Assembly: GCA_001804705.1 (NCBI GenBank)
Contig: MHAY01000029.1
Location: 1-58,540, forward strand
From: Ignavibacteria bacterium RIFOXYC2_FULL_35_21
GTDB lineage: Bacteria; Bacteroidota; Ignavibacteria; Kapaibacteriales; UBA2268
Length of the DNA: 58,540 bases
Direction of reading: 5' to 3'
This document shows, piece after piece, positions 16,117-58,540 of this stretch. A model generated the notes under the pieces. The model saw only the letters and a program-made list of their open reading frames with translations, did not search any database and had not been told where the DNA came from. Made by a program: the position numbers and the translations under genes. The stretch's first letter is position 1, and every line of letters starts with the position of its first letter.

Positions 16117-16760
16117 AAAGCTAATCATAATTAAAATCACAACAATCACATTAATCACACAAATCACAGTTCAGACAATTTGCGAACTTAGTGTTTTCTT
16201 TACGACTTTGCGTTAACTGCTTCCCCCCAATTCCTAACTCCTAATCACACAAATCCCAGTTCCGACAATTTGCGTCTCCGTATGAACCAAAATAATCAGC
16301 GAAAATCAGTCCAATCAGTCTCATCCGTGTTCTATTCTGCCTCTCCGCCCCTCCGCGTGTAACAAAAAATCGTGTCCATCATTTAATCAAGTAAATCCTG
16401 TTCAGACAATTTTCGTGAACCCCTTACCCCAATCCCTATCCCCCAACCCCCATACCCTATCATCCCAATCACATAAATCACACAAATCACAGTTCCGACA
16501 ATTTGCGTCTCCGCCCCTCTGCGGTGAAAAAAAAATCTTGTCCATCATTTAATCAAGTAAATCCTGTTCAGACAATTTGCGTGAACCCCTTTCCCCCAAT
16601 CCCTATCCCCCATGCCCAATCATCCCAACCACATTAATCACACAAATCACAGTTCCGACAATTTGCCTCTCCGCCCCTCTGCGAGAAATATAATCAGTGA
16701 AAATCAGTTCCATCAGTGTTATCCGTGTTCAAACAACTTGCGTCTTTGCATTAACCAAAA
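16117..16760. repeat. Gene-free tract of diverged phrase-like repeats with a 166-bp tandem duplication
   Basis: Short motifs recur again and again: AATCACACAAATCACAGTTC, GACAATTTGCG, CTCCGCCCCTCTGCG, ATCAGT, ATCCGTGTTC. The clearest unit is a tandem pair, 16373-16538 and 16539-16688, at high identity. Such phrases are common intergenic filler in Bacteroidota and other phyla. No open frame of interest and no strong terminator was seen. Confidence 0.7.
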
Positions 16761-17395: not shown

Positions 17396-17927
17396 TCAAA
17401 AAACTCTGTTAAAATCTGTGCTATACTCTGTGTGACTCCGTGTTAAAAATTAGCTTTGTACTCAGTTCTGCATTTTAAATTTAGAATTGAAAATTTATTG
17501 AAAATTGAAAATTAGAAATTGAAAATTTAAAAAACAAAACTCTGTCAAACCTGCTCCGGATGCACAAATCTGCTCAATTTCGGCTCAATATCACCAAAAT
17601 TTGAATCTGAGAAATCTGTTTAATCAGCTTAATCCAAGTTCAGACAACTTGCGTCCCGCGCCTTTGCGGTGATTTAATATTGATGTAGGTATGCGGCATT
17701 AGATTCTTCGACAGGCTCATAATGACATCCTCCCATTTCCTTCCAAACTAATAGTCTAACAGCCTAAAAGCCTACAGCCTAATTATTAATTATGAATTGT
17801 TAACTCATGTTACGCAATATTGAAAACTTTATTCTACACCTTTGTAATTTTAAAAACCTTATCAAGTACATTTAACCCAAATTATTCAATAGAAAATTGT
17901 TTAAGTCTTATAAGCAACTGTTGAATT

Positions 17928-42035: not shown

Positions 42036-42923
42036 ATGAAAAAAATCAAAATAGGTATCATCGGTTACGGAAAGCTTGGCTCTGTCCTTGCTGAAGCTGT
42101 ATCTAAAAAATATAAGCTTTTGTGGGTAGTTGAAAAGGATATTACTAAAACAAACTTAATCAAATCCACACTGAAAAATAACATCAACTTTTATTCTTCG
42201 GTTCCAATTTTTATTCCCATTCCGGATATCATTATTATTTCGGTAAACGACTCAGAAATAAAATCTGTTGCCAATGAAATCGCAATATCCTGGCACTATA
42301 AATTAAAAGATATTTGGGTGATTCATTGTTCAGGTGTTCTGCCCGTATCGGTATTGTCATCCTGTGAAAAGCGTGGTGCTAAAACAGCTTGTATTCATCC
42401 CTTCCAGACATTTTACCATCCGGATGCTTCCGTTTTGAAAAACATCGGCTGGACAATCGAAACTAAACACAACCCGGAATTACTTAAAACATTAATAACA
42501 CAGCTTGGAGGAAAACCTATGTCGATCCCAATTGAATCAAAAAATATAAAAGTCCTCCATCATTTATCAGCCGTTTTTGCATCGAATTTTCTGAGTACAG
42601 TCCTTGCAGGTGCAGGCTCGCTTGAAGAACTATCCGGGATGAACTGGGAGGATTTTCTTCCTCTTATTATCGAAACCACCAGGAACAATAATTTTAAATC
42701 TCTCTCGAAGTCGGAAAAAATTCCATTGACAGGCCCTATTGCCCGTGCTGATGTTGATACTATTAAATTACACCTGAAATCACTTAGGAATCACACAAAC
42801 CTTCTCAATATATATATTTATCTCAGTCTGGCTACTCTCGAAACTGCAAAACAATACGAAATTATCAACAAACAAAAGTTTGCGGAAATCAAAGAAATTT
42901 TGTTAAGTTCGCTTATTGATTAA
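42036..42923 (+). CDS. DUF2520/Rossmann-fold NAD(P)-binding protein
   Basis: 295 residues. N-terminal Rossmann motif 'KIGIIGYGKLGSVLAEA', then 'DIIIISVNDSEIKSVANEIA', 'IHCSGVLPVSVL', 'IHPFQTF' and a C-terminal helical dimerisation domain with 'TGPIARADVDTIKLHL'. This is the DUF2520 family, related to pyrroline-5-carboxylate reductase/ketopantoate reductase folds. It is broadly conserved in Bacteroidota; substrate unknown. It lies 21 nt behind vapC. Confidence 0.8.
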   Translation: MKKIKIGIIGYGKLGSVLAEAVSKKYKLLWVVEKDITKTNLIKSTLKNNINFYSSVPIFIPIPDIIIISVNDSEIKSVANEIAISWHYKLKDIWVIHCSGVLPVSVLSSCEKRGAKTACIHPFQTFYHPDASVLKNIGWTIETKHNPELLKTLITQLGGKPMSIPIESKNIKVLHHLSAVFASNFLSTVLAGAGSLEELSGMNWEDFLPLIIETTRNNNFKSLSKSEKIPLTGPIARADVDTIKLHLKSLRNHTNLLNIYIYLSLATLETAKQYEIINKQKFAEIKEILLSSLID

Positions 42924-43060: not shown

Positions 43061-43708
43061 ATGAAACGTTTACCAATACTTTTTACAATCATACTGGCAT
43101 TTATCCTATATAGCTGCGGCAAAGAAGCCGATGACATGAAGAAAGCTTTTGAATCAATGGAAAAAATTGCCGATGCAGGCAAGAATATAGAAGCTGAATC
43201 AAAACTCGCAGATGTCCGCAAAAAGGAAAGAATAAGCAGGGGTGACACTCTTGCCATGCCTTACCAGGAACTTCAAAAATTCCTTCCCGCATCAATCAGC
43301 GGCTATACGGCTGAGGAACCCGAAGGCACATCCTTCAATATGCCTCCTATGTCTTACTCACAGGCAGTATGTAAATATGTTGCTCCGGGTACAAACGGTG
43401 GTGATAACTATGTTACAGTTACACTTCTCGATTACAACCAGGCGGGCGATATGTATGTTGGCTTGACTGCACTCTGGCAGATTGGATTTTCCACCGAGAC
43501 AAAGGACAGAATGGAAAAAACTTTCAGTCCGGGATTCGACAACGTTTCAGGATATGAATCCCTGGACAAAAATAATAAAAGAGCAACAGTAAACTATGGA
43601 ATTGCATGGAGATTCTTCCTTACAGTCGAGGCAGGCAACCAGACCAGCACCGACTTTGTGAAAAGTGTAGCAAATTCAATTGATATAAAGAAACTATCTG
43701 GTATGTAA
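43061..43708 (+). CDS. Lipoprotein of unknown function
   Basis: 215 residues. Lipobox 'ILYSC' at residue 19 follows a signal peptide. The mature part has an N-terminal helix and then a beta-rich domain with repeated Gly/aromatic stretches ('QAGDMYVGLTALWQIGF', 'ATVNYGIAWRFFLTVEAG'). GGAGG lies 6 nt before the ATG. It is followed after 30 nt by the DUF4870 gene, so a small operon. No family was recognised with certainty. Confidence 0.7.
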   Translation: MKRLPILFTIILAFILYSCGKEADDMKKAFESMEKIADAGKNIEAESKLADVRKKERISRGDTLAMPYQELQKFLPASISGYTAEEPEGTSFNMPPMSYSQAVCKYVAPGTNGGDNYVTVTLLDYNQAGDMYVGLTALWQIGFSTETKDRMEKTFSPGFDNVSGYESLDKNNKRATVNYGIAWRFFLTVEAGNQTSTDFVKSVANSIDIKKLSGM

Positions 43709-43738: not shown

Positions 43739-44116
43739 ATGGCAGATGAAGTAACCACAACAGCCCAGGGCTTTGACCCTCAGGACATCGAGCAGAACAA
43801 GACTATGGCTATTCTTGCATATATTATATGGCTCGTGCCACTAATTGCCGCCAATCAGTCTAAGTTTGCACGTTATCACACAAACCAGGGCATAGTATTA
43901 TGGATTTGCATTGTTGCATTTTGGATTGTTATAGCCATCATAACAGCCATTTTACCATGGACATTCTATCTTACAATCGGAATTGTATTTTCGCTATTGT
44001 GGATTGCTGTCTGGATTTTCTCGTTGGTTTGTATAATAATGGGTATCCTCACAGCATCCAAAGGCGAGGCAAAGCCGCTTCCGTTGATTGGTAACCTGTT
44101 CACAATTTTGAAGTAA
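43739..44116 (+). CDS. DUF4870-like small membrane protein
   Basis: 125 residues: 'QNKTMAILAYIIWLVPLIA', then 'ARYHTNQGIVLWI' followed by TM helices (about 22-38, 55-75 and 80-105), and a final 'PLIGNLFTILK'. The conserved 'KFARYHTNQGI' loop is the DUF4870 hallmark. Function unknown. Coexpressed with the lipoprotein upstream. AAGGAA lies 8 nt before the ATG. Confidence 0.75.
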   Translation: MADEVTTTAQGFDPQDIEQNKTMAILAYIIWLVPLIAANQSKFARYHTNQGIVLWICIVAFWIVIAIITAILPWTFYLTIGIVFSLLWIAVWIFSLVCIIMGILTASKGEAKPLPLIGNLFTILK

Positions 44117-44265: not shown

Positions 44266-44427
44266 CCCAAGCTGAAGCATGGGGTTATTCTATCTCGTTC
44301 AGAAGCACAGTGAAAAAGCTCGTCTCATGCCTCCCAAGCTGAAGCATGGGGTTATTCTATCTCGTTCAGAAGCACAGTGAAAAAGCTCGTCTCATGCCTC
44401 CCAAGCTGAAGCATGGGGTTATTCTAT
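44266..44427 (+). repeat. 67-bp tandem repeat, 2.4 copies, with a conserved hairpin
   Basis: Identical units start at 44268 and 44335, and a third, truncated copy starts at 44402 (period 67). Each carries CCCAAGCTGAAGCATGGGG, a stem of about seven pairs with a TGAA loop. The last copy diverges after TTATTCTAT. Upstream at 44202-44220 lies another hairpin, CCCCACACTTAAGTGTGG. The rest of the 44117-44595 gap is AT-rich; I see no gene. The leader of the kinase cluster runs through it. Confidence 0.75.
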
Positions 44428-44595
44428 CGTGCAGAAGGGCAGAGAAAATTAATGTTTTTCCTTTGTATTGTATTCATGTACTTATAGGAATATGATATTT
44501 AAGTATATTTGAAATAAATTTTATGTATATTACTTTGACAATTAAACTTTATTTATAGATTTTTTAGAGTATTTACAACTTGCTTTAGGTGATGT

Positions 44596-47500
44596 ATGAA
44601 TGCATTTCTGAAGATTGACTTGTCAAAAAAGAAGCATGTCTTTTTATTAATCACAGTTATTAGCATTTTGCTTGTTGCAGGCGGTTACATATATTACAGG
44701 TACGATGAAAGTCTTACCCGAAATGAAATTCAAAATGACCTAAAGGCAATTGCTGGCTTGAAAATAAATCAAATAGTCCAATGGCATAAAGATAGGCTTG
44801 GTGATGCTGCAGTTCTTTCTAAATCACCATTAACCATAAAAGCTGTTAAAGACTGGCTGATTAATAAAGACGATATTAAGTTAAAAAAAGAATTACAGGA
44901 AAGATTTAACTTGTTAATCAATAATTATGGATACCATGAAATTTATCTGGCTTCAGTCAAAGGAAAATTGCATTTTTCTTCGATTAACTTAACAGAAAAA
45001 TTCAGTCATGTTACTACTAAAAAAATATTAGATGCAATAAGAAATAAGACTATCTCTTCAACTGATTTATATTATAGTCCGGAACATAAAAAAATTCATT
45101 ATGATATAATAGCTCCTATTTCAGAACAATCGGGAAATCCTTTAGCAGCAATTGTATTGAGAATTAATCCCGATAAATACCTTTACCCTTTGTTTCAGTC
45201 GTGGCCTATACCAAGTAAGACCTCAGAAACACTGATTGTCAGAAAGGAAGGAGACAGTGTCCTTTTTCTTAACGAATTAAGGCACAAAAAAAATACGGCA
45301 CTTAAGCTAAAAATATCTTTAACCCAAAAGGATGTTCCTGCTGTGAAAGCTGTACTTGGATATAAGAGAATTTCCGAAGCTTATGATTACCGAGATGAGC
45401 CGGTTTTATTTTATGTAAATAGTATTCCCGGCACTCCATGGTTTATTGTTTCTAAGGAAGATAAATCAGAAATTTATAAGGAATTGTATTTCAGGGAAGC
45501 ATCGATAATCGGATTAACTTTCTTCCTGATTTTAATTACAGGAATCGGATTCTCATACATTTACAAAAGCCGCCAAAGAGATATTATAAAAAATCTATAT
45601 TATGAAGAAAAAGAACTATGGGAGTCGCAGGAAGAATTTAAAACAACTTTGTACAGCATTGGAGATGCAGTTATCACTACCGATTTTAACGGGAACGTAA
45701 AACACATGAATCCCGTTGCCGAAGAATTGACCGGCTGGAAGGAATCACAGGCAAAAGGGAAATTCCTTGAAGATGTTTTTAAAATAATAAATGAAGATTC
45801 ACATGAAGGTGTTGAAAATCCTGTTAATAAAGTTCTTAGGGAAGGTTTAGTAATCGGTTTAGCAAATCACACACTCTTAATTTCAAAAGACGGAAAAGAA
45901 ATACCAATAGCAGACAGCGGAGCACCAATAAAGGATGATAATGGAAATATATTAGGAGTTGTATTAGTATTCCGTGACCAGACAGAAGAACGTGAAGCAC
46001 AGAAACTTCTTAAGGAAAGCGAAGAAAGATTTAAAGAATTGTATGAAAACATGAGCAGCGGTTGTGCTGTATATGAAGCTGTTAACAATGGTGAAAATTT
46101 TGTATTTAAAAATTTCAACCGTTCTGCTGAAAAAATTAACCAGGCGAATAGAGATGAAATAATTGGCAAATGTGTAACCGATGTATTTCCTGGAGTTAAA
46201 GAATTCGGTCTTTTTGATGTATTTAAAAGAGTTTGGAAAACAGGAAAATCTGAACATCATCATGTTAATCTTTATAAAGATGACAGGATAAGTGGTTGGT
46301 ATGAAAATTTCGTTTACAAGTTACTTACTGGTGAAATTGTTGCTATTTATGATGATGTTACTCAAAGAAAACAAGCAGAAGAAGCCCTGAAGGAAAGCGA
46401 AAGTAATTTAAAAATAGTACAAAAAATTGGCAAAATCGGTAGCTGGGAATTCGATTATTCAACTAATGAAATCAGATGGTCAGAACAGACTTTTGAACTT
46501 TATGAAAGGGATAAAAAGCTTGGACCACCAACTCCGGATGAGGAAGCGAAATACTATACCGAAGAGAAGGCAAAGCTACTTAGAGATTTAGCCCTAAAAG
46601 CAATTGAAACTGGTAATGAGTTTAGCTGCGACTTTGAACCGATTTTACCAAGCGGCAGAAAAGCATACTTCAACTCTAAAATGAAACCCTTTAAGGATAG
46701 CAGAGGTAAGACAACAAAATTATTGGGTACTGTTCAGGACATTACTGAACAGAAAAAGTTCCTTGAGGAATTAAAAAAGACAAAGCATAATGCTGAGGAG
46801 ATGAACCGCCTCAAATCCAACTTCCTTGCTAACATGAGCCACGAGCTGAGGACACCGATGAATGGTATTATGGGCTTCTCTCAAATTCTCCGATTTGAAG
46901 ATGATATGGACAGCATAAAAGAAATATCCAATTTGATTTACCGAAGCAGTAAAAGGCTGATGAACACCTTAAACTCCATTTTAGACCTGTCGAGAATCGG
47001 TTCGGGCGAGATGAAACCGAATTATACATTAGCTGACCTTGTCGAGCTTGCTAATGAAGCAGTCAATGCGTTCAAAGCCGAAGCTGATAGTAAGAACCTC
47101 ACCTTGATGGTCGAATCAAAGGACGAAAGCATTATAGCAAATACCGACCAAAGAATTGTAATTGAAATACTAATCAACCTGATTAGCAATGCCCTGAAAT
47201 TTACAAAAGAAGGAGGCGCCACAATTAGAGTCGATCATGAAAAATCAAAAATGAAGCATTTTATCGTTTACGACGTAACTGATACAGGCATTGGAATTGA
47301 TGTAAAAGATTTCGATACTATTTTCGAAGAGTTCAGGCAATTAAGCGAGGGATTGAGCCGTGGATTCGAAGGCACAGGGCTTGGCTTGACAATATGTAAA
47401 CGCTATGCAGAGTTACTCGATGGTACAATAACTGTTAAAAGCAAGCTCGGCGAAGGCTCAACGTTTACTTTAAAACTTCCGGTTACAATTGAGCCCGGAG

Positions 47501-47925
47501 AGTATGAGAAAGAAAAGGAAGATACATTGGAAGAGTCACCGGTAGCAGTTCCTCAAAGAGGGAAAAAACCACTGATTCTTTATGTTGAAGATGACGAAGT
47601 TTCTGTTATCTATATTGAAAAATTGCTGAAGGGTGCTTATGATGTCGAGATTGCAAAAAATTCAGCCGAGTCAGTTCAAATGGCAAAGAAAAAACAATAT
47701 GCACTTATACTCATGGACATTAATCTTGGTAAAGGAGCTAATGGAATTGATGCAACAAGAGAAATCAGGAATATGAAAAATTACCGGGATATTCCCATCA
47801 TTGCAGTTACGGCTTATGCCATGGTAGGCGACAGGGAAGAATTTATTGCCGGGGGATGCACCGATTATCTTTCAAAGCCATTCGAAGGCAAAGAACTTTT
47901 GGATTTATTAAAAAAATATTTATAG
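44596..47925 (+). CDS. Membrane hybrid histidine kinase (Cache-like, PAS x3, HisKA, HATPase, receiver)
   Basis: 1109 residues. TM1 at 15-35 and TM2 at about 302-322 enclose a 265-residue periplasmic sensor of the double-Cache type. Three PAS domains follow (about 348-460, 475-590, 600-720), the first with 'YSIGDAVITTDFNGNVKHMN'. HisKA has 'NMSHELRTPMNG' with H749, the HATPase N and G boxes ('ISNALKF', 'DTGIGID', 'GTGLGL') are intact, and the receiver has 'LILMDINLG' with D1041 and 'YLSKPFEG'. It is the first and only transmembrane member of a cluster of five signalling genes, so it likely reads an external ligand and starts a phosphorelay to the four proteins downstream. Confidence 0.9.
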   Translation: MNAFLKIDLSKKKHVFLLITVISILLVAGGYIYYRYDESLTRNEIQNDLKAIAGLKINQIVQWHKDRLGDAAVLSKSPLTIKAVKDWLINKDDIKLKKELQERFNLLINNYGYHEIYLASVKGKLHFSSINLTEKFSHVTTKKILDAIRNKTISSTDLYYSPEHKKIHYDIIAPISEQSGNPLAAIVLRINPDKYLYPLFQSWPIPSKTSETLIVRKEGDSVLFLNELRHKKNTALKLKISLTQKDVPAVKAVLGYKRISEAYDYRDEPVLFYVNSIPGTPWFIVSKEDKSEIYKELYFREASIIGLTFFLILITGIGFSYIYKSRQRDIIKNLYYEEKELWESQEEFKTTLYSIGDAVITTDFNGNVKHMNPVAEELTGWKESQAKGKFLEDVFKIINEDSHEGVENPVNKVLREGLVIGLANHTLLISKDGKEIPIADSGAPIKDDNGNILGVVLVFRDQTEEREAQKLLKESEERFKELYENMSSGCAVYEAVNNGENFVFKNFNRSAEKINQANRDEIIGKCVTDVFPGVKEFGLFDVFKRVWKTGKSEHHHVNLYKDDRISGWYENFVYKLLTGEIVAIYDDVTQRKQAEEALKESESNLKIVQKIGKIGSWEFDYSTNEIRWSEQTFELYERDKKLGPPTPDEEAKYYTEEKAKLLRDLALKAIETGNEFSCDFEPILPSGRKAYFNSKMKPFKDSRGKTTKLLGTVQDITEQKKFLEELKKTKHNAEEMNRLKSNFLANMSHELRTPMNGIMGFSQILRFEDDMDSIKEISNLIYRSSKRLMNTLNSILDLSRIGSGEMKPNYTLADLVELANEAVNAFKAEADSKNLTLMVESKDESIIANTDQRIVIEILINLISNALKFTKEGGATIRVDHEKSKMKHFIVYDVTDTGIGIDVKDFDTIFEEFRQLSEGLSRGFEGTGLGLTICKRYAELLDGTITVKSKLGEGSTFTLKLPVTIEPGEYEKEKEDTLEESPVAVPQRGKKPLILYVEDDEVSVIYIEKLLKGAYDVEIAKNSAESVQMAKKKQYALILMDINLGKGANGIDATREIRNMKNYRDIPIIAVTAYAMVGDREEFIAGGCTDYLSKPFEGKELLDLLKKYL

Positions 47926-48023
47926 GTTTATCTGATTAGCTCAGGTTTTATTTAATTTGCATAACATGAGTTATAAATTCAAATTAATGTAAATTATTTT
48001 TAATAAAATAAGTAAATAATCGA

Positions 48024-49652
48024 ATGAGCGTATTCAAAAGTAAAATACTCATAGTTGATGATAATGAACCGGTTTTACTATTAATAAATAAAATATTAAA
48101 AGGGCCCGGCAGAACAATCATTACTGTAAATTCCGGGAAAAAAGCACTTGAAATAATTAATAAAGAAAATGACATATCTCTCATTCTCATGGATATTCAG
48201 ATGCCGGGTATGGACGGCTTTGATACTGTGAAAAAAATTAAAGAAAATGAAAGGCTCAAAGATATTCCTGTAATTTTTATCACCGGTTTTTACAAATCTG
48301 AAGAATATGTGAACGAAGGTTATGAAATAGGGGCTTATGACTATATACAAAAACCTTTCGAAGCCCAAGAATTAAAAAATAAGGTGAACGTTTTCCTCAC
48401 AATTCACCATCAGAGAACACAACTCAACATGCAAGCAGAGCAAATGAGAATTTTACTGCGAAGTATAGTAGATGGAGTGATAAAGGTATCGAAAAGCGGG
48501 GCTGTTTTATTTGCGAACAAATCTGCAGAAGATATATTAGACCTGGGTGAAGTTCAAATAATCGGCCAGCCGTTAGGTAATGTATTGCAATCATTCGATG
48601 CAAATAATAATCCGATAAAAATTAATTTGATGGATTGGATTAATGTAACCAATTCGCCGGGAAAACGGCAATTAACGATTCAGACAAATAAGGGAAAACG
48701 AAAAATAATATCGATAGGAGTTTCAGAAATAAAAGATTCATCAGGCAATGCAGATGGTTCGGTTATTGTTTTCAATGATATTACCGAGACGTTAAGGCTC
48801 CAAAATCAAAAAGCTCTTTCTCAAAAAATGGAATCCGTCGGACAGCTTGCTTCGGGTATAGCTCACGAGATTAACACACCAATGCAATTTGTCGGAGACA
48901 ACACTTTTTTCATTAATGATGCTTTTTCATCGCTGCTCCAATACATAAAGTCTATTGAAGATATTACAAAGAAAGCAACTGCCGAAAATCCTGATATTAT
49001 TGCAGAATTTAATAAACTAAAAAATGATTACGACATTGACTTTCTAATGGAAGAAATTCCTGTCGCAATAGATAGAACACAAAACGGAATTAAGAGAGTC
49101 TCCAAAATCGTTCTGGCAATGAAAAACTTTGCTCATCCCTCGGCAAAGCAAAAAGCATTGTCGAACATTAATCAGGGAGTCGATGTTACAGTAACAATTT
49201 CAAGAAATGAATGGAAATATATCGCAGAGCTTGAAACAAGGCTCGAACCCGATCTTCCGCTTGTACAATGCACAATTGACGAAATCAACCAGGTAATTCT
49301 TAATATGATTGTTAATGCCGCTCACGCCATCGAGGAAGCTATCGGCAAGGACACGGGTAAGCAGGGGAAAATAACCATCGAAACAAAATCGGACAATGAA
49401 TTTGTTTATATTATTTTACATGATACTGGTAAAGGTATCCCGCAGGAGATTCAATCGAGGATATTTGACCCATTCTTTACGACGAAGGAAGTCGGCAAAG
49501 GTACGGGACAGGGATTGGCAATTGCACACGATATAATTGTCAATAAACACAAAGGAGAAATCACGGTTGAATCTGAAGTAGGCAAGGGTACTACCTTTAC
49601 ATTGAAATTACCAATAAATTCAAAACAGGAATCTGCAGAAGGTGAGAAATGA
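48024..49652 (+). CDS. Soluble response regulator-histidine kinase (REC-PAS-HisKA-HATPase)
   Basis: 542 residues. REC domain 1-125 with D57 in 'LILMDIQMPGMDG' and K in 'YIQKPFE'; PAS at about 140-255 ('LLRSIVDGVIKVSKSGAVLFANKSA'); HisKA with H281 in 'GIAHEINTPMQFV'; HATPase with 'GKGIPQEIQSRIFDPFFTT' and 'GTGQGLAIAHDII'. No membrane segment. It sits 98 bp behind the hybrid kinase and overlaps the next gene by 4 nt. It probably receives phosphate through its REC and passes it on from its own kinase core. Confidence 0.9.
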   Translation: MSVFKSKILIVDDNEPVLLLINKILKGPGRTIITVNSGKKALEIINKENDISLILMDIQMPGMDGFDTVKKIKENERLKDIPVIFITGFYKSEEYVNEGYEIGAYDYIQKPFEAQELKNKVNVFLTIHHQRTQLNMQAEQMRILLRSIVDGVIKVSKSGAVLFANKSAEDILDLGEVQIIGQPLGNVLQSFDANNNPIKINLMDWINVTNSPGKRQLTIQTNKGKRKIISIGVSEIKDSSGNADGSVIVFNDITETLRLQNQKALSQKMESVGQLASGIAHEINTPMQFVGDNTFFINDAFSSLLQYIKSIEDITKKATAENPDIIAEFNKLKNDYDIDFLMEEIPVAIDRTQNGIKRVSKIVLAMKNFAHPSAKQKALSNINQGVDVTVTISRNEWKYIAELETRLEPDLPLVQCTIDEINQVILNMIVNAAHAIEEAIGKDTGKQGKITIETKSDNEFVYIILHDTGKGIPQEIQSRIFDPFFTTKEVGKGTGQGLAIAHDIIVNKHKGEITVESEVGKGTTFTLKLPINSKQESAEGEK

Positions 49653-50854
49653 AAATCAGTATTTTATTTGTTGACGACGACAAGGACGTAATTGACGGAT
49701 ACAAGAGGATGCTGTTCTCCATGAAAAAGGAATGGGAACAGTATTATGCTCTAAGCGGTGAAGAAGCCCTAAAAATATTAGAAGAAAATAAAATTGACGT
49801 TATTGTATCCGACATGAAAATGCCGGGAATGGATGGTACTGAATTACTCGGGAAAGTCAAGGAACTCTACCCTCGTATTTTGAGAATAATTTTATCGGGA
49901 CATCAGGATGAAATTAAAATTATCAATACTACAACACTTGCCCATCAATTCCTGCTTAAACCATGCGATACTAATCAGATAAAAAGTGTAATCGAAGATG
50001 CTTTTTCTCTAAGGACAAATCTGGAAAATGAAAAATTAATGTCAATTATAAACGGCATAGGTCAATTGCCTGCAATACCTGAGCTTTATCTTGAAATTGA
50101 AAGAATGATGAATTCACAGGATGTGTCATTAGCAATAGTGTCAAAGTTAATTTCAAAAGACCCTGCAATAACTGCTAAAATCCTGCAAACAGTAAATTCT
50201 GCTTTTTTTGGACTTCCCCGCAGAGTAAGCAGTTTAATTGATGCATTGAGTTTTCTTGGTACAAATACTATTAAATCTATCATTTTGTATCTTCAGTCAT
50301 TTGCATCTGCAAATTATCCGCCTGAAACAAGAGCTTATTGTGAAGAAGTTGGCAGGCATAGCCTGATGGTTGCTTTAACAGCAAAAGAAATCGGGAAAAT
50401 TGAAAATAAAGACAAGCAAATGCTGGATGATATTTATATTGCCGGTATATTACATGATATTGGAAAGATAATTCTCATGCAGGTGCCAGGGTATTATAAC
50501 AAAATGTCAATTTTAAACTCTACCGGGACAAGGAATTCAATTGATATAGAGTATCAACTTCTTGGAGTTTCTCATGAATGGGTTGGAGCGTATCTCTTAG
50601 GTATTTGGGGACTACCTAAAACTGTTATAGAAGCTATTGCGTTTCATCATTCACCCGGTAAAGTGAATGAATCGGAAGTTACTGCACTTTCAATTCTTCA
50701 TGTTGCAAATGCTTTTGTTAATTATAAAGGAGAAAAATTTGCAGGAAATGAACTTGACGTAGATTTTTCTTATCTTGGTAATCTTGATTTATTAACAAAA
50801 TTGGAATTTTGGTGGGAGTCAACAAAAAAATTCAGCGAGCCTGATAATGAATAA
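49649..50854 (+). CDS. REC-HDOD response regulator
   Basis: 401 residues. REC domain with D55 in 'VIVSDMKMPGMDG' and K in 'FLLKPCD'. HDOD domain from residue about 140 ('GIGQLPAIPELYLEIERMM', 'KDPAITAKILQTVNSAFFGL', 'LGTNTIKSII'). An 'ILHDIGKIILMQ' segment keeps an HD pair. HDOD domains usually work as non-catalytic signal outputs in chemotaxis, motility and c-di-GMP-linked control. Its start overlaps the previous stop by 4 nt and its end overlaps the next gene by 8 nt, so it is tightly coupled. Confidence 0.9.
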   Translation: MKISILFVDDDKDVIDGYKRMLFSMKKEWEQYYALSGEEALKILEENKIDVIVSDMKMPGMDGTELLGKVKELYPRILRIILSGHQDEIKIINTTTLAHQFLLKPCDTNQIKSVIEDAFSLRTNLENEKLMSIINGIGQLPAIPELYLEIERMMNSQDVSLAIVSKLISKDPAITAKILQTVNSAFFGLPRRVSSLIDALSFLGTNTIKSIILYLQSFASANYPPETRAYCEEVGRHSLMVALTAKEIGKIENKDKQMLDDIYIAGILHDIGKIILMQVPGYYNKMSILNSTGTRNSIDIEYQLLGVSHEWVGAYLLGIWGLPKTVIEAIAFHHSPGKVNESEVTALSILHVANAFVNYKGEKFAGNELDVDFSYLGNLDLLTKLEFWWESTKKFSEPDNE

Positions 50855-51236
50855 TAGAATTTTAATGATTGACGATGAGCCTGATGTTCTGGATGGTTAT
50901 AAGAGAAACCTGAAGGAACACTTTGGAGTGTTTACTGCTGCAAATAGTGCTGATGCTATGAAAATTGTTAAATCTGAGGATGAATTTGCTGTGTTTATAT
51001 CGGATTACAAAATGCCGGGAATGAATGGTATTGCACTTTTATCAATTCTTAAAAAGATTTCACCGGGAACAATTCGTGTTCTGATTACGGGACATCCCGA
51101 TGCGGAAGTAGCCATTGATGCAGTAAACGAAGGACAAATATTCAGATTCCTGTCTAAACCTTACCCTATGTCAAGATTAATAAGGGTTATTAACGAATGT
51201 ATCGAAGAATATAATTCACAATTGAAAAATAAATAA
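50847..51236 (+). CDS. Single-domain response regulator (CheY-like)
   Basis: 129 residues, a bare receiver. Acidic pocket 'IDDEPDVL', phospho-acceptor D53 in 'FISDYKMPGMNG', Thr in 'VLITGHPD' and Lys in 'FLSKPYP' are all present. It is most similar to the receivers of the two flanking genes in the 'DVLDGYKRNLK' start, so it probably arose by local duplication. Likely a phosphate relay or sink. Confidence 0.9.
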   Translation: MNNRILMIDDEPDVLDGYKRNLKEHFGVFTAANSADAMKIVKSEDEFAVFISDYKMPGMNGIALLSILKKISPGTIRVLITGHPDAEVAIDAVNEGQIFRFLSKPYPMSRLIRVINECIEEYNSQLKNK

Positions 51237-51261
51237 TAAGAATAGAATAAAAGGTATATTT

Positions 51262-52398
51262 ATGAACAAACGCATTCTTTTGGTTGATGATGATTATGAT
51301 GTGTTATCTGCTTACAAAAGAAATTTGAGAAGAGATTTCGATTTAACGACTGCTAACAGCGGAATGGAAGGCATTGAAAAAATCAGGGAATCTGACCCGT
51401 TTGCTATTGTTGTTTCCGATTTTAATATGCCCAAAATGAACGGAATTGATTTTTTAAAATTAGTACGTAAAGCAGCACCTGATACTGTTAGAGTAATGCT
51501 CACAGGATTTGCCGACCTTGAAACTGCCATAGAGGCTGTCAATCAGGGTAATGTTTTCAGGTTTCTAACCAAACCCGTTAACACCGAATCTTTTATCAGC
51601 ACATTGAATGATTGTGCCGAACAATATCAATTAATCACGTCTGAAAAGGAGCTTCTGGACAAGACTTTGAAAGGCAGTTTAAAGGTTTTTATTGATATAC
51701 TGGCCTTCACCAGCCCTACGATATTTAATTTATCGAGCAGATATAGAGTTATGGCAAAAAAGCTGGGGGAAGCACTCGGAATCAAAAAACTATGGGAAGT
51801 TGAAATTGCCGCACTGCTTTCTCAAATTGGAGTCATTACCATTCCTACTGAAATAATGGATAAAAGAATTAAAGGTGAAAAATTAACACATGACGAAGAA
51901 AAAATTTACAAATCTCAATCGGAAAACAGCAGAAATCTTCTGAAAAATATTCCGAGGCTCGAGGAAATTGCCGATGCAATTCAATTTCAGGATAAAAACT
52001 ACAACGAATTTGTTACCGAAAATAAAGTTGTAAATGAAGATGATTTTCCAGTTATAAGCAGGATTTTGAAAGTTGCAATTGATTTTGAAAATTCTATTCA
52101 GAAGGGACTGAATCAGCCTGAGGCACTGAGGTTTCTAAAGGCAACTTCTCATAAATACGACCCGAAGGTTTTGGATACACTCGAAAGGATTATAACAGGA
52201 GTCAGAATTGACCGCGTATTAAAACATATTCGCCTCAAAGACCTCAGAATTTCAATGGTAATTGCTGAAGATATCAAGGATGACAAAGGTAATATACTTT
52301 TGCGTAAAGGTTATGAAATTACTGATGTTCTTTTACTCAGATTGATGAATGCCGCCAAAGTCCGAAGTATTATCGAGCCGGTTTATATTTTTGAGTAA
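51262..52398 (+). CDS. REC-HD-GYP-like regulator with a degenerate catalytic site
   Basis: 378 residues. REC with D53 ('VVSDFNMPKMNG') and K ('FLTKPVN'), then an HD-GYP-like fold from about residue 140. Where active c-di-GMP phosphodiesterases have HD, HH and GYP, this reads 'LLSQIGVITIP', 'IQFQDKNYNEF' and no GYP. Metal ligands are therefore lost and it should bind, not cleave, a ligand. A C-terminal segment of about 40 residues ('ISMVIAEDIKDDKGNILLRKGYEI') resembles the tail found in REC-HD-GYP proteins. It lies 25 nt behind the single receiver. Last gene of the cluster. Confidence 0.85.
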   Translation: MNKRILLVDDDYDVLSAYKRNLRRDFDLTTANSGMEGIEKIRESDPFAIVVSDFNMPKMNGIDFLKLVRKAAPDTVRVMLTGFADLETAIEAVNQGNVFRFLTKPVNTESFISTLNDCAEQYQLITSEKELLDKTLKGSLKVFIDILAFTSPTIFNLSSRYRVMAKKLGEALGIKKLWEVEIAALLSQIGVITIPTEIMDKRIKGEKLTHDEEKIYKSQSENSRNLLKNIPRLEEIADAIQFQDKNYNEFVTENKVVNEDDFPVISRILKVAIDFENSIQKGLNQPEALRFLKATSHKYDPKVLDTLERIITGVRIDRVLKHIRLKDLRISMVIAEDIKDDKGNILLRKGYEITDVLLLRLMNAAKVRSIIEPVYIFE

Positions 52399-52408
52399 GC
52401 CTATTATC

Positions 52409-52563
52409 AACTCATGTTACGCAGTAATTATTATCATTGATATTTAAAATTCAATCCAAATGGAATTGTTGTTAATTTCAGTTATGTTTTATTTTACACG
52501 TTCAACTCTATATGAGTTGAACTTTATGGATTACGGAAATTATGTAACTGCGTAACATGAGTT
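52409..52563. repeat. Inverted-repeat element with AACTCATGTTACGC ends
   Basis: 155 bp. Left end AACTCATGTTACGCAGT, right end ACTGCGTAACATGAGTT, exact inverse. Inside lies the palindrome GTTCAACTC...GAGTTGAAC. Solo copies of the end motif occur at 52657-52670, 47959-47972, 17802-17815 and, diverged, 8404-8417. It behaves like a MITE but no matching transposase is in view. Confidence 0.7.
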
Positions 52564-52810
52564 AATTATTGTTTTGAAATTTTTTAAATTGAAAATTCAA
52601 TGAAAATTAAAAATTGAAAATTGAAAATTTCAATCTTTTACAATTACACGTATATTGCGTAACATGAGTTATTAATTGGAAATCATTATGAATGATAGTG
52701 CATATCAATATGTAGCTTTGTGTTGCTATCCTGATAGCCGAGCTTATGTATAACAACTTATAATATCACCTTTTCACAAAGAAATATAAAGATAGTAGGG
52801 AATATATAAA

Positions 52811-52841
52811 ATCCGCAACAGCTCTCACTATTGCGGATTTT
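52811..52841 (-). terminator. Terminator of the former tRNA-Thr
   Basis: ATCCGCAA / TTGCGGAT, 8-bp perfect stem, T-runs on both sides. It lies 8 nt beyond the 3' end of the tRNA fragment, where the native tRNA terminator would be. This shows that the left junction is original chromosome. Confidence 0.7.
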
Positions 52842-52848
52842 AATTATG

Positions 52849-52894
52849 AGCCACCTGGCGGACTCGAACCGTCGGCCTGCTGATTACAAATAAG
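52849..52894 (-). pseudogene. 3' half of a tRNA-Thr gene (attachment-site remnant)
   Basis: The minus strand reads from the anticodon loop (TTTGTAAT, anticodon TGT) through ATCAG, a T-arm with GGTTCGAGTCC, and the acceptor strand AGGTGGC. The 5' half (acceptor GCCACCT, D-arm and the 5' anticodon strand) is absent. Similarity stops at 52894. Such a 3' half with the native terminator still attached is what remains at one end of an element integrated into a tRNA gene. Confidence 0.65.
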
Positions 52895-53004
52895 AGGGAT
52901 TATTGCGTTTTTTGTCAAAATACATATATTTATCGTAATTCTTCAACCAAATTGCACCTATAAATATTTTTAAAAGAAATTTAGATTTTAAATTACTACC
53001 TTAA

Positions 53005-53109
53005 ATGGTAATGCAAATCTCCGGACACAAGAACAGGTCTGCATTTCAGAAGTATGTAAAAATTGCACAATCGGAAGCAATAGAAGCAATGAGAAAAGTG
53101 TGGGATTAA
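53005..53109 (+). pseudogene. C-terminal remnant of a tyrosine recombinase (integrase)
   Basis: 34 codons ending in TAA. The segment ISGHKNRSAFQKYVKI has the GH motif and, eight residues on, the catalytic Tyr typical of Bacteroidota phage-type integrases, and the tail EAIEAMRKVWD fits that family. An in-frame stop lies directly before the first codon. All other catalytic boxes are missing. It sits 110 bp from the tRNA-Thr remnant. Confidence 0.65.
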
Positions 53110-53150
53110 TGAAAGAAATATCCGTCAACTAAAATAATTCAATAAATAAC

Positions 53151-54386
53151 CTATCTCCCATATACTTTAATATTATTTATAAATATTTCGCTTTCGTATG
53201 TAATATCCCATACTGCAATATCTATGTATTTTACAAAATCATTAATTTCACACTTAAAATTCCTATGTCTTTCGTCACTAATTTTATTACTTGCCGGCCA
53301 AATTCCAATATATTGATATGGCACTTTGCCTATATATTTAGGATTGCCATCAATATAAACATGACCAGTTGAACCCCAATTGCCATCTACTTCAACCCAC
53401 CTAAAAGACATATAAGATATATAAGTTTTTTTTGTAAAACTAATTCTTAAAATACACAAATAATTTTGTTTATTATAAGTCGAGTCTAATAGAAAACAAT
53501 CACCCGTGCAAAATGATTTACCAAAGCCATAAGCTTCACCACCTAAGATTTGACAAGTTTTAATTCCTGGTTGGACATCAAATGAATCCTTTATAAAAAT
53601 TGGTTGTAATTCCACCCCTTGAAAAAAATATGAACTTCGATTACTAAAAACATTTCCAACCTCATTAAAATTTGCTTTAAATAATAACGGCCTTGATGGT
53701 ATTACTAAGCTATCGTAACCACTTTCATTAAATTGGTGGAGATTAAAAATTTCAGGATTATAAACATTATTTATTACACTTTGATACTCAGTTTCGCTTC
53801 TATTATGTTTTAGTAATAATTTCTCATATTCATTTCTTAATGAAACATTGTCTTTATTTAAATTATTAGTAATAAAAATTAGATAAATTATTATCAAACA
53901 ACTTATTATCATTCCTAATAAAACATGAAATATTTTCAATTTTTTATTTAACCTTTCCTTAATACTTTGCAGATTATCATTATGTTCAGAATTATTACTG
54001 TTTTGATTGATGGCCTCATTAGATTCAACATTTTTAGTCCAAGGTTTATTAAAGGCATAAAATGATAATATGTCTAGATTTTTCGATTGTATAGTAATTA
54101 TATCAGATTCTCTTTTATCTGAAAATAATGACTTTAAAACTCTTGTTGAGAATATAACCTGATTACCCGACTTAAAATTTACTTTTTCGCCATTAAATGT
54201 AAAGACGATTTTATCGCTTAATTCTATCATTTTAGCTTTAATATCTTTTAAAAGTAATTCATATTGAATAGGATTGGTACCAATAAATTTACTTTGTGCA
54301 ATTGAAAAGATACTTTCACGTAACTTATCGGCTGAATTTTTATTGATATTGATTTCACCAATATCAAAATTAAAAGAATCTTTCAT
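53151..54386 (-). CDS. Orphan single-pass membrane protein
   Basis: 411 residues. A cytoplasmic N-terminal part (1-150) of mixed alpha/beta character with a low-complexity Asn/Glu stretch (near residues 120-140), a single TM helix near 155-178 (HVLLGMIISCLIIIYLIFI), a short coiled coil, then an extracytoplasmic region of 200 residues with aromatic-rich beta strands and two close cysteines (SFCTGDCFLL). The C-terminal domain resembles a jelly-roll/galactose-binding fold in general shape only. Very AT-rich. It lies right behind the integrase remnant, so probably belongs to the island. No homologue recognised. Confidence 0.65.
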   Translation of the reverse strand: MKDSFNFDIGEININKNSADKLRESIFSIAQSKFIGTNPIQYELLLKDIKAKMIELSDKIVFTFNGEKVNFKSGNQVIFSTRVLKSLFSDKRESDIITIQSKNLDILSFYAFNKPWTKNVESNEAINQNSNNSEHNDNLQSIKERLNKKLKIFHVLLGMIISCLIIIYLIFITNNLNKDNVSLRNEYEKLLLKHNRSETEYQSVINNVYNPEIFNLHQFNESGYDSLVIPSRPLLFKANFNEVGNVFSNRSSYFFQGVELQPIFIKDSFDVQPGIKTCQILGGEAYGFGKSFCTGDCFLLDSTYNKQNYLCILRISFTKKTYISYMSFRWVEVDGNWGSTGHVYIDGNPKYIGKVPYQYIGIWPASNKISDERHRNFKCEINDFVKYIDIAVWDITYESEIFINNIKVYGR

Positions 54387-54615
54387 TAGAACCTCAATAA
54401 AACCTAAATCCCAAACAAATCTTTTAGGAACTAGTTAAATACTATGGGTTTTGAAAATTTCATCAATATTTTTGATAAAAATTAATGAATAATTTTTTTT
54501 AAAACAAATGTAGAATTGATTGATAAACAAATTGAAACAAAAAAAAGAAACGAAATAAATAAAAATCAATCGTTATCTCATAATAAACAAAATTATTAAT
54601 TTTTTGGAGGATGAT

Positions 54616-57600
54616 ATGAAAAAGTTGTTATGTTTTCTTTTTATTATTGTACCAATTTTTTTGATTGGAACTAAATTTTGCTATGCACAAAATGGGTGGC
54701 AAACTCTAAATTCTGGTACAACTAAGTTATTACATGGTTTATTCTTTCTTAATGAACAAGTTGGATGGGTTTGTGGACAAGATGGTTTAATAAAGAAAAC
54801 TACAGATGGTGGTTTAAGTTGGATAACTCAAAGAGAAGGAGGAAATTATTTGCAAAGAATCCAATTTATTAATGAGAATGTAGGTTATGCTATTGGTGGT
54901 TATGATAATACAAATCCAACAGTTATTAAAACATTAGATGGAGGCATAACTTGGTTTTCACAGGATCCAAATACTACGATTGGGTTAAATGGATTGTTTT
55001 TTATCAATGAACAATTAGGATGGATTACGGGATATTATGGAACTATTAGAAAAACAACTAATGGGGGACTGTTCTGGACTATACAAACTCCTCCCGGTTC
55101 TAATAATTATTGGTTCTATAATATAAAATTTTTTAATGATAATATAGGATGGATATCCGGCGAGGCAGGTAAAATTCTTCATACTACAGATGGCGGAATT
55201 ACATGGGTACAGAAAACAAGCCCTAGTTATACTCATTGGCCCGGTTTGTGTATTGTTAATGATAATATAGTATATATAGCCGGTTATGTTAGAACAGGTT
55301 TTGGTAAAATCATAAAAACTACAGATGCCGGAGCAAATTGGACAATAATTAATGCCACACCTACAGACGCTTTTTATAGTGTTAGCTTTATTGATCAAAA
55401 TCAAGGTTGGGTTACAACCATTTATGGGCATATTTTAGTTACTTATGACGGCGGAGTAACATGGAAACAACAAGTATCTGGCACGACACAAGGTTTAGTA
55501 GGATTACAAATGCTTAATGCGAATGTTGGTTATGCAGTTGGTTATAATGGAACTATTTTAAAAACAACAACTGGTGGAGAAAAAATACCCGATATAATAG
55601 ATGGTTTAGTCGCCTATTATCCTTTCAATGGAAATGCAAATGACGAAAGCGGAAATGGTAATGATGGAATTGTTAATGGAGCTACTCTATCAACTGATAG
55701 ATTTGGTAGATGTAACCAAGCTTATAGTTTTAACGGAATAAATAATAGTATAGAAGTTAATAATTCTTCCTCTTTGCAACTGACAAATGCTTTTACATTT
55801 ACATTCTGGACTTACATTAATCAATGGTATAATAATGAATGGGGTACTTTTATTTCAAAGAGCAGTTGGGTTAACTCACCTAAATATCTTATTGCAACAC
55901 ATAGAACAGATGGATGGAATCTGCCAATTAATTATACAAATAATGTAGCAACTCCATATATGACTCCGTTAGAGGCATATAAATGGAAATTTGTTACTTG
56001 GATTTGGGATGGAAATAATTCTTATTTGTATGTTGACAATCAAAAATATGTATTAAATAATTACTCCGGAACTCAGGATATTGACAATGGTACTTTAACA
56101 ATAGGAACTGTTAAGCATCCAATTCCCGGAGCTATTACATGGTTAAATGGAAAAATGGATGATATTCGAATTTATAATCGTACTTTAACTGATTCAGAAA
56201 TACAACAACTTTATCTCGAAGATAACAATTTAAATAATGGTTTAGTCGCTTATTATCCATTCAATGGTAATGCAAATGATGAAAGCGGTAATGGTCATGA
56301 CGGAATTGTAAATGGAGCAACTCTAACAACAGATAGATTTGGTAATCAAAATAGAGCATATTCTTTCGATGGCATTTCAAATGATATTAATTTAAACGGT
56401 ACATTTGGTGGGGAAAGAGAAGTATCTGTATCGGCTTGGTTTAATGTTAATGGTAGTACAGAAACATTTCAAGCAATTTTTGAATCTCAAAGTGGTGGAG
56501 ATACTGGAGATGGTTATATACATCTTCAATGTAATACCTTTGGTAATAATGCTGTTTATTTTAATAATGGATATTGTCTATTACCAATTTTGTCACCAAC
56601 TCCTTATGGTGATTGGAGACATGTTGTTATAACGGCTAAATCCGGGGATATTAGGCTTTATGAAAATAGTGTTCAGGTAGCAAAATATAGTAACACATTT
56701 GATTTTATTACAATTAGTGATAAAGTTAAAATAGGTTCAGGCTGGCTGGGTAGATATTTTAAAGGTCAAATTGATGAGATTCGGATTTATAATCGTGCTT
56801 TAACAGATTGTGAAATTCAAGCGTTATTTAATGAGACTTCCGATTCTATTTATAATCCTAAGACTGATACAATCGGTTGTCAAGTATGGATGAAGAAAAA
56901 CCTTGATGTTGACCATTATCGAAATGGAGATCCGATTCCTCAAGTAACAGATCCAACCCAATGGGCAAACCTTACAACAGGAGCCTGGTGTTATTATAGT
57001 AACGATCCATCTAACGGTGTCATTTATGGCAAAATTTATAACTGGTTTGCAGTGAACGACTCAAGGGGCTTGGCACCACAAGGATGGCATGTACCGAGCG
57101 ATGCAGAGTGGTCAACACTGGCAACTTATCTTGGAGGCACATCTGTTGCAGGTGGAAAGCTTAAAGAAACAGGCACTACTCATTGGAATTCTCCAAATAC
57201 AGGAGCAACTAATGAAACCGGATTTACAGGACTTCCGAGTGGTTCCCGTAGCTACATGAATGGTTTAGACTACGAAATTGGACAAACCGGTGGCTGGTGG
57301 TCTTCTACGGAGAATATACCTTTCGCATATGGCAGGTACCTTGCCTATAATAGCGCCAATATTAATAGGGACCAGTACTATAAGAATAATGGATTTCCTG
57401 TTCGTTGTGTAAAGGATGAAAATCAAGATAACACACCTCCTACAGCTATTTGTAAAGATATAATTATTCAACTTGATGAATCAGGTACCGCTCAAATAAC
57501 TGCTTCTCAGATTGATAATGGAAGTTACGATGATTGTATCGGTATTAAATCAATATCTTTGTCATCTTGCACATTTGATTGCTCGAACACAGGTAGTAAC

Positions 57601-58540
57601 ACTGTTACTCTTATAGTCACAGATAATAACCATAATGTTTCAACTTGTAACACAATTGTGGAAATTATTGACATTACAGCACCGATTATTATTAATAATC
57701 CGTCAAATATCATAGCTTACACCGGAGCGGATGATACAGATTGTTTTGTAGCTGTTACATGGGTTGAACCTACTGCCACAGATAATTGTCCATTTGTTAA
57801 CCTAACATCTGATTACATGTCCGGAGATGAATTTCCAATCGGAAAGACTACTGTCAAATACATTGCAGAAGATGCTTCAGGTAACAGAATTTCGGCAACA
57901 TTTAATATTGAGGTTATTGATGATACAGCACCGATTATTACAAATATTCCTTCAAATATCATAGCATACACCGGACCGGATGATATTGATGGTTATGTCG
58001 CTGTGACGTGGGTAGAACCTACTGCTACAGATAATTGTTCTTATGTCAACCTGACATCCAATTATAATCATGGAAATGAATTTCCAATCGGTATGACTCT
58101 TGTGAAATACACTGCGGAGGATGCATCAGGAAATAAATCTGAGGCAACATTCAATATGGAGGTCATTGATAATACAGATCCGAAAATAACAATGTTTGTA
58201 TTTCCTAAAGAATTATATGAACTTTGGCCTCCTAATCACAAGATGTGGACTTTACAAGCGAGTGTAGATGCCACTGACAACCAGCCAGGTGTTTCGTTTA
58301 TTTTGAAATCAATTGTGAGCAGTGAAGCCGATATGGGCCTTGGATTTGACGATGTAGCCGGCGATATTCAAAATGCAGAATTTGGAACTCCAGACCTTAG
58401 TTTTGATTTGAGAGCCGAAAGATACGGAACCGGAGATGGAAGGATTTATTCAATAACTTATGAAGCGACTGATGCAGCAGGTAACAAAGCACAAGCGATA
58501 GTAAATGTGTTAGTCAAACATTCTCAGGCACAAAATGAAG
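54616..58540 (+). CDS. Giant modular secreted protein (propeller, LamG x2, FISUMP, HYR repeats), cut by the window edge
   Basis: The frame from ATG 54616 (GGAGG 7 nt upstream) stays open for 1308 codons to the last base. Signal peptide to 'KFCYAQ'. Residues about 25-325 are six to seven Ycf48/BNR-type blades, each with 'KTTDGG..W' and an 'NVGYA' strand. Two LamG-like domains start at 330 and 542; the DNA repeats at a spacing of 636 bp (55603, 56239). A FISUMP domain (about 751-930) has 'IGCQVWMKKNLDV', 'LAPQGWHVPSDAEW' and 'FPVRCVKD'. HYR-type Ig repeats begin near 938, two of them (57676, 57925) at a spacing of 249 bp. The C-terminus, probably a T9SS sorting domain, lies outside. Likely a surface or adhesion protein of the island. 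Confidence 0.85.
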   Translation, partial: MKKLLCFLFIIVPIFLIGTKFCYAQNGWQTLNSGTTKLLHGLFFLNEQVGWVCGQDGLIKKTTDGGLSWITQREGGNYLQRIQFINENVGYAIGGYDNTNPTVIKTLDGGITWFSQDPNTTIGLNGLFFINEQLGWITGYYGTIRKTTNGGLFWTIQTPPGSNNYWFYNIKFFNDNIGWISGEAGKILHTTDGGITWVQKTSPSYTHWPGLCIVNDNIVYIAGYVRTGFGKIIKTTDAGANWTIINATPTDAFYSVSFIDQNQGWVTTIYGHILVTYDGGVTWKQQVSGTTQGLVGLQMLNANVGYAVGYNGTILKTTTGGEKIPDIIDGLVAYYPFNGNANDESGNGNDGIVNGATLSTDRFGRCNQAYSFNGINNSIEVNNSSSLQLTNAFTFTFWTYINQWYNNEWGTFISKSSWVNSPKYLIATHRTDGWNLPINYTNNVATPYMTPLEAYKWKFVTWIWDGNNSYLYVDNQKYVLNNYSGTQDIDNGTLTIGTVKHPIPGAITWLNGKMDDIRIYNRTLTDSEIQQLYLEDNNLNNGLVAYYPFNGNANDESGNGHDGIVNGATLTTDRFGNQNRAYSFDGISNDINLNGTFGGEREVSVSAWFNVNGSTETFQAIFESQSGGDTGDGYIHLQCNTFGNNAVYFNNGYCLLPILSPTPYGDWRHVVITAKSGDIRLYENSVQVAKYSNTFDFITISDKVKIGSGWLGRYFKGQIDEIRIYNRALTDCEIQALFNETSDSIYNPKTDTIGCQVWMKKNLDVDHYRNGDPIPQVTDPTQWANLTTGAWCYYSNDPSNGVIYGKIYNWFAVNDSRGLAPQGWHVPSDAEWSTLATYLGGTSVAGGKLKETGTTHWNSPNTGATNETGFTGLPSGSRSYMNGLDYEIGQTGGWWSSTENIPFAYGRYLAYNSANINRDQYYKNNGFPVRCVKDENQDNTPPTAICKDIIIQLDESGTAQITASQIDNGSYDDCIGIKSISLSSCTFDCSNTGSNTVTLIVTDNNHNVSTCNTIVEIIDITAPIIINNPSNIIAYTGADDTDCFVAVTWVEPTATDNCPFVNLTSDYMSGDEFPIGKTTVKYIAEDASGNRISATFNIEVIDDTAPIITNIPSNIIAYTGPDDIDGYVAVTWVEPTATDNCSYVNLTSNYNHGNEFPIGMTLVKYTAEDASGNKSEATFNMEVIDNTDPKITMFVFPKELYELWPPNHKMWTLQASVDATDNQPGVSFILKSIVSSEADMGLGFDDVAGDIQNAEFGTPDLSFDLRAERYGTGDGRIYSITYEATDAAGNKAQAIVNVLVKHSQAQNE

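Follow-up and report, generated by a model that had tools for sequence, protein, structure and literature searches.

Position 52891 of an Ignavibacteria contig as the probable end of an integrative island in tRNA-Thr(TGT), with a recurrent integrase stump beside it

An integrative island inserted in the anticodon arm of a tRNA-Thr(TGT) gene very probably has its attR junction at position 52891 of the window (the whole 58,540-bp stretch analyzed, which is the entire contig C29), and the integrase encoded on contig C66 of the same genome would be responsible. This explanation, taken as a whole, makes 52848..52891 the attR core and the left end of the island, an assignment we hold with the same high confidence. 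The source genome (G000) comprises 4.15 Mb in 105 contigs with 97.75% completeness, and was compared with three congeners (G001, G002 and G003). A literature search at the level of titles and abstract openings found no title on islands or integrase stumps of Kapabacteria. The features at the two proposed ends are as follows.

52848..52891, minus strand: 3' part of tRNA-Thr(TGT), tRNA positions 31-74, within an 84-bp identity with C66 and with no 5' part
52807..52842, minus strand: terminator-like hairpin 3' of the tRNA fragment, identical in the C66 copy
52941..52961, minus strand: 21-bp direct repeat, a possible arm-type integrase site; second copy at C66 2968-2988
C66 2990-4063, minus strand, reading toward the tRNA: tyrosine integrase of 357 aa (PF00589, E 1.5e-19; phrog_1 integrase)

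Base-by-base comparison of the window from 52891 down to 52808 with C66 2818-2901 revealed identity at 84 of 84 bp. The block holds tRNA-Thr(TGT) positions 31-74, a few trailing bases and all but one base of the hairpin. Identity begins at tRNA position 31, inside the anticodon arm, and the bases flanking the block differ on both sides; beyond the hairpin the copies are loosely similar (86% across 136 bp overall). ARAGORN called no tRNA at the fragment site, and tRNA positions 1-30 left no trace in 52881-53200, where the best match was 6 bp. These results bear out an earlier note on this DNA, which had recognized a tRNA-Thr 3' half lacking its 5' half; the boundary between chromosome and element that it set at about 52894 also stands, with its exact position moved to 52891. 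When 52800-52960 was searched against its own genome at E ≤ 0.001, only three places were found: itself, C66 2815-2901 (99%, E 5.9e-38) and C27 36128-36174 (87%), the last being a tRNA-Thr(CGT). The minus strand of 52800-52852 folds at -22.2 kcal/mol (z -6.3), with 0 of 200 shuffles equally good. A pattern scanner found no terminator in 52700-53200, probably because the U-run lies inside the stem. The hairpin had been taken for the native terminator of the tRNA gene; a native origin found no support, since the tRNA-Thr loci of three congeners, inspected by eye, have no such hairpin.

A complete tRNA-Thr(TGT) carrying a repeat of 52849-52894 had been predicted elsewhere in the genome, and C66 supplies it: an intact gene at 2788-2861 (L002 1474-1547), with an integrase on its 3' side. 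Downstream of this tRNA come first the hairpin, next the 21-bp repeat (2968-2988) and then the integrase gene. The enzyme aligns over residues 73-352 to the solved chain 4a8e and, by eye, has what we take to be the usual R, K, HxxR, H and Y residues; it is apparently complete and predicted to be active. Beyond it, in order, are genes for a helix-turn-helix (HTH) protein, a putative small DNA-binding protein (weak match, E 6e-4) and a P4-family primase of the BT4734/D5 type (TIGR01613). The integrase has one other match in its own genome, a weak one on C2 (21%, E 2e-4), none at E 1e-5 in a set of 50,697 phage records, and plasmid matches in three plasmids only, at 21-26% identity. No relatives of this enzyme, or of the 416-aa integrase type described below, were confirmed in viral contigs.

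The 21-bp repeat pair is the strongest indication that a single element has one end on C66 and the other in the window. Its 19-bp core occurs twice in the whole 4.15-Mb assembly in a search allowing up to 2 mismatches, both copies exact, versus 0 in the control. With the element ends joined, both repeats point the same way, one at -69 to -49 and the other at +151 to +171 relative to the core. Lambda-like integrases bind arm-type sites, and by analogy the 21-bp repeats may be bound by the C66 integrase in this way. In the proposed mechanism, attP would have carried tRNA positions 31-74 together with the hairpin, and the C66 integrase would have recombined it with the identical chromosomal sequence. 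The island copy would thereby have restored an intact tRNA on C66, while the chromosome's own tRNA 3' part would have been displaced to the window. Joined flanks read as one tRNA-Thr, a trivial result given that the core is identical in both copies.

If C66 and the window belong to one element, the visible island amounts to 29.8 kb of C66 plus 5.6 kb of the window and would exceed 35 kb. On the window side it carries two genes.

53151..54386, minus strand: predicted membrane protein of 411 aa, the first island gene at the window end; a C25 homolog is 36-37% identical
54604..58539, plus strand: giant modular protein (YCF48-like, LamG, Fib_succ_major, HYR), cut by the contig end

The membrane gene had been called an orphan, which is refuted by a divergent gene pair on C25 (L227 7738-10421) homologous to the membrane and giant proteins; the giant homolog is 56.5% identical. 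The C25 pair lies near what is presumably secG, and both C25 and the window contig break inside the giant gene. By their position, the two window genes may be foreign cargo. A change in G+C content at 52.9 kb had been proposed as a check. Positions 53001-55000 have 26.7% G+C, less than any of the 508 2-kb windows to the left, whose minimum is 29.1%, but the drop across the whole right side, from 36.4% in 1-52800 to 32.3% in 52895-58540, falls within the range of the left side, where the lowest of 236 equal windows has 32.0%. On C66, G+C is 30.2% after 2990 versus 36.5% before 2861.

The C66 part of the island includes a type III restriction system whose mod and res genes are separated by five others. 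One gene in between, at C66 15509-17158 (L005 2509-4158), fuses a nucleotide-kinase-like N-terminus to a PurA/PurZ-like adenylosuccinate synthetase, scoring below NCBIfam cut-offs; it is accompanied by an ImmA/IrrE protein with a DarG-like end, DUF7002 and a YhcG-type nuclease. A thiol-activated cytolysin family protein (PF01289, E 6e-49) is encoded at L004 8617-10239. A liv-type ABC transporter operon (L005 10221-16393) has two unrelated genes inside. Such operons occur in 4 of 30 genomes, each with different unrelated genes interleaved (elsewhere L223, L224-L225 and L226). Searched at E ≤ 1e-40, the permease of this transporter turned up in 4 of 30 genomes, its own among them, with 55-62% identity in the other three.

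The principal alternative is that there were two events: the C66 island would end elsewhere, its att site lost or unassembled, and the window fragment would be the relic of another, decayed element at the same tRNA-Thr. The two contigs are not joined by sequence in the assembly, the window end bears the stump of a different integrase, and the liv-type operon on C66 could be chromosomal. Against this, the 19-bp repeat core is confined to these two ends, the assembly yielded no further tRNA fragment at E ≤ 0.001, and the transporter looks accessory, since its permease is limited to 4 of 30 genomes and its identity of 55-62% contrasts with 81-88% for a chromosomal signaling gene described next. 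We regard two events as unlikely, and infer that one element links C66 and the window.

The single-island explanation places chromosome to the left of 52891. A signaling operon at 44596-52398 is conserved with its gene order kept, and lies on the chromosomal side of the junction; its last gene is the following.

51262..52398, plus strand: response regulator-HD domain gene, with orthologs in the three congeners (81-88% identical)

In G001, the ortholog of window 43739-44116 (85.6% identical) has tRNA-Thr about 110 bp away, with no insertion between, and is itself preceded by orthologs of window 42036-42923 and 43061-43708. In G003, tRNA-Thr faces the last gene of the signaling operon at 14.2 kb. 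Because of this linkage in G001 and G003, the left flank is read as the old 3' neighborhood of tRNA-Thr, so that the island runs to the right with C66 as its other end. Together with the intact tRNA-Thr and integrase on C66, the proximity of left-flank genes to tRNA-Thr in a congener upholds the proposal that a foreign element begins at the fragment and runs rightward. In the window, the signaling operon separates the fragment from the genes found at tRNA-Thr in G001; at the G001 site the operon is absent and the 5' neighbors differ from those on C66; and different genes occupy this place in G002 and G003. The genes 5' of tRNA-Thr are, by our provisional naming, an acyl-CoA dehydrogenase on C66, gmhA/engB-like genes in G002 and G003 and a phosphatase-like gene in G001. 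About 60 bp before tRNA-Thr are conserved although these neighbors differ. No tRNA was found near the acyl-CoA dehydrogenase in any of four loci of 4.1 kb (G001, G002, G003 and G015), and none of the congeners shows both flanks of an empty site.

It is highly improbable that the left side is instead the mobile partner, with the signaling operon moving to tRNA 3' ends and the window fragment belonging to its end. In favor of this reading, the operon 3' end faces a tRNA or fragment within 500 bp in 5 of 9 genomes (loci including L022, L024, L025 and L027), tRNA-Thr in G001 directly adjoins the genes left of the operon, and that genome also has an integrase gene of a different type some 9 kb away from the tRNA-Leu at its operon. 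Against it, no second tRNA 3' copy was found within the 14-20 kb loci of four relatives, which are short enough that a distant copy may exist; a second tRNA-Thr part sought in the window gave only a 14-bp match at 16125; and G003 likewise shows linkage between the operon and tRNA-Thr. The tRNAs at the operon 3' end are all different (Thr fragment, Leu, Arg, Pro and Lys), with an extra gene between in G007. This tally is a plain count; it takes in 9 of 12 genomes with an ortholog, leaving out G013, G016 and G024, and G014 contributes only 0.9 kb after the operon. Two further repeat families were observed on this side of the window. Inverted 17-bp repeats at 52409-52425 and 52547-52563, which recur at 52656-52671 and 17801-17820, are MITE-like, and 44270-44430 holds three imperfect tandem copies, counted by hand, of a 67-bp unit (AGCTGAAGCATGGGGTTATTCTATC...).

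To the right of the very probable attR junction lies the integrase stump.

52981..53109, plus strand: C-terminal stump of a tyrosine integrase, residues 375-416 of a 416-aa type, with one stop inside and the last 34 codons open

Its sequence is MVMQISGHKNRSAFQKYVKIAQSEAIEAMRKVWD. Over the last 32 residues it shares 94% identity with another stump of this genome, on C8, and matches the ends of intact integrases, 417- and 416-aa open frames, in G002 and G015 at 88% and 84% identity, respectively. The C66 integrase used as a query did not find the stump. The earlier description of an integrase C-terminus right of the fragment is correct, but the piece does not belong to the integrase at the C66 end and is a relic of the 416-aa type. 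We searched the 416-aa enzyme against 60 relatives and counted matches of fewer than 100 residues in G000-G003.

Window: residues 375-416
G002 C33: residues 375-416
G002 C39: residues 378-416
G002 C16: residues 375-414
G001 C48: residues 379-416
G000 C8: residues 340-416

Full copies and an interrupted near-full copy (G002 C16 106101-107141, residues 55-415) were left out of these six. Five of the six start at residues 375-379 and end at 414-416; four of the six contain stop codons, and G003 has no fragment. The C48 and C16 stumps probably represent one ancestral event because the same gene follows both (75% identical, present in 2 of 5 genomes), and when they are merged, 4 of 5 starts cluster. 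Under a null of uniform starts, random draws reached the 4-of-5 clustering in 4 of 200,000 trials and the 5-of-6 clustering in 0 of 200,000. In other genera, fragments of the 416-aa integrase start at many places. One locus (G030 C103 96916-98258, L104) holds an interrupted 416-aa-type integrase with a second C-terminal piece (348-415) 14 bp downstream.

Flanks of the stumps differ on both sides. No N-terminal integrase piece was found in G000-G003 at E ≤ 1e-4, and a search for direct repeats bounding stump-bearing elements on C48, C33 and C39 gave nothing beyond 15-bp matches. Seven copies were compared pairwise, and in each of the 21 pairs third codon positions account for at least half of the differences; the C16 stump was omitted from this comparison, having lost its frame. 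Differences at the three codon positions number 2, 1 and 10 between the window and C8, and 4, 4 and 8 between C33 and the window, C33 being nearest to neutral. The third-position excess in 21 of 21 pairs makes it unlikely that the stumps are copies of one stump, and suggests separate truncations of once functional genes. Some copies resemble mosaics: a test of 168 triplets gave 0 of 1000 permutations for the best triplet and 0.002 for the window triplet (with C8 and G015), values that are insecure once corrected for that number of tests. That copies which diverged separately share a breakpoint points to a specific event, though the searches gave no direct repeats, no N-terminal partner and no secure mosaic. 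Conceivably, though we think it improbable, the last 34-42 codons of the 416-aa integrase serve as a DNA attachment module, elements of this genus recombining within the integrase 3' end and leaving the module at the border. Once the island is circular, the stump would come directly after the attachment site and downstream of the C66 integrase, an arrangement that would fit the replacement of an older integrase.

The island is of a well-known kind, a further example of a tRNA-targeted island. Features given for Islander-class islands in one source (PMC4383910) are an intact tRNA, a displaced 3' fragment, a tyrosine integrase gene and an anticodon-centered crossover. Like these, the present island has an intact tRNA of the same kind, a displaced fragment that reaches the tRNA 3' end instead of being internal, a PF00589 integrase inside and a crossover that would lie at the anticodon; unlike them, it ends on two contigs and bears an extra foreign integrase stump at the far end. 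Orientation of fragment and tRNA is compatible with one island, its 29.8 kb and 5.6 kb lying on separate contigs (Islander range 2-200 kb, on one replicon). It shares an integrase, a repressor-like HTH protein and a P4-family primase (TIGR01613) with P4-like satellite and phage-plasmid islands, from which it differs by an integrase without a match in phage records and with 21-26% identity in 3 plasmids. The stumps, for their part, resemble archaeal 'suicidal' integrases of the SSV type in being integrase genes in pieces with a recurrent breakpoint, but differ in that only C-terminal pieces occur here. Such integrases are termed exclusively archaeal in one account (PMC8371274). Their model of int(N) and int(C) halves flanking the element finds no support here in that form, as no N-terminal piece turned up in G000-G003 at E ≤ 1e-4.

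Both proposed island ends were placed from sequence alone in the fragmented genome of a poorly studied Candidatus Kapaibacterium lineage. That placement suggests which genes the island carries: a type III restriction system and its accessory genes, a liv-type transporter and a surface-protein pair. Should the recurrent stump be an attachment module, it would be a bacterial counterpart of the archaeal gene-splitting integrases and would extend recombination within an element's own integrase gene from archaea to bacteria.
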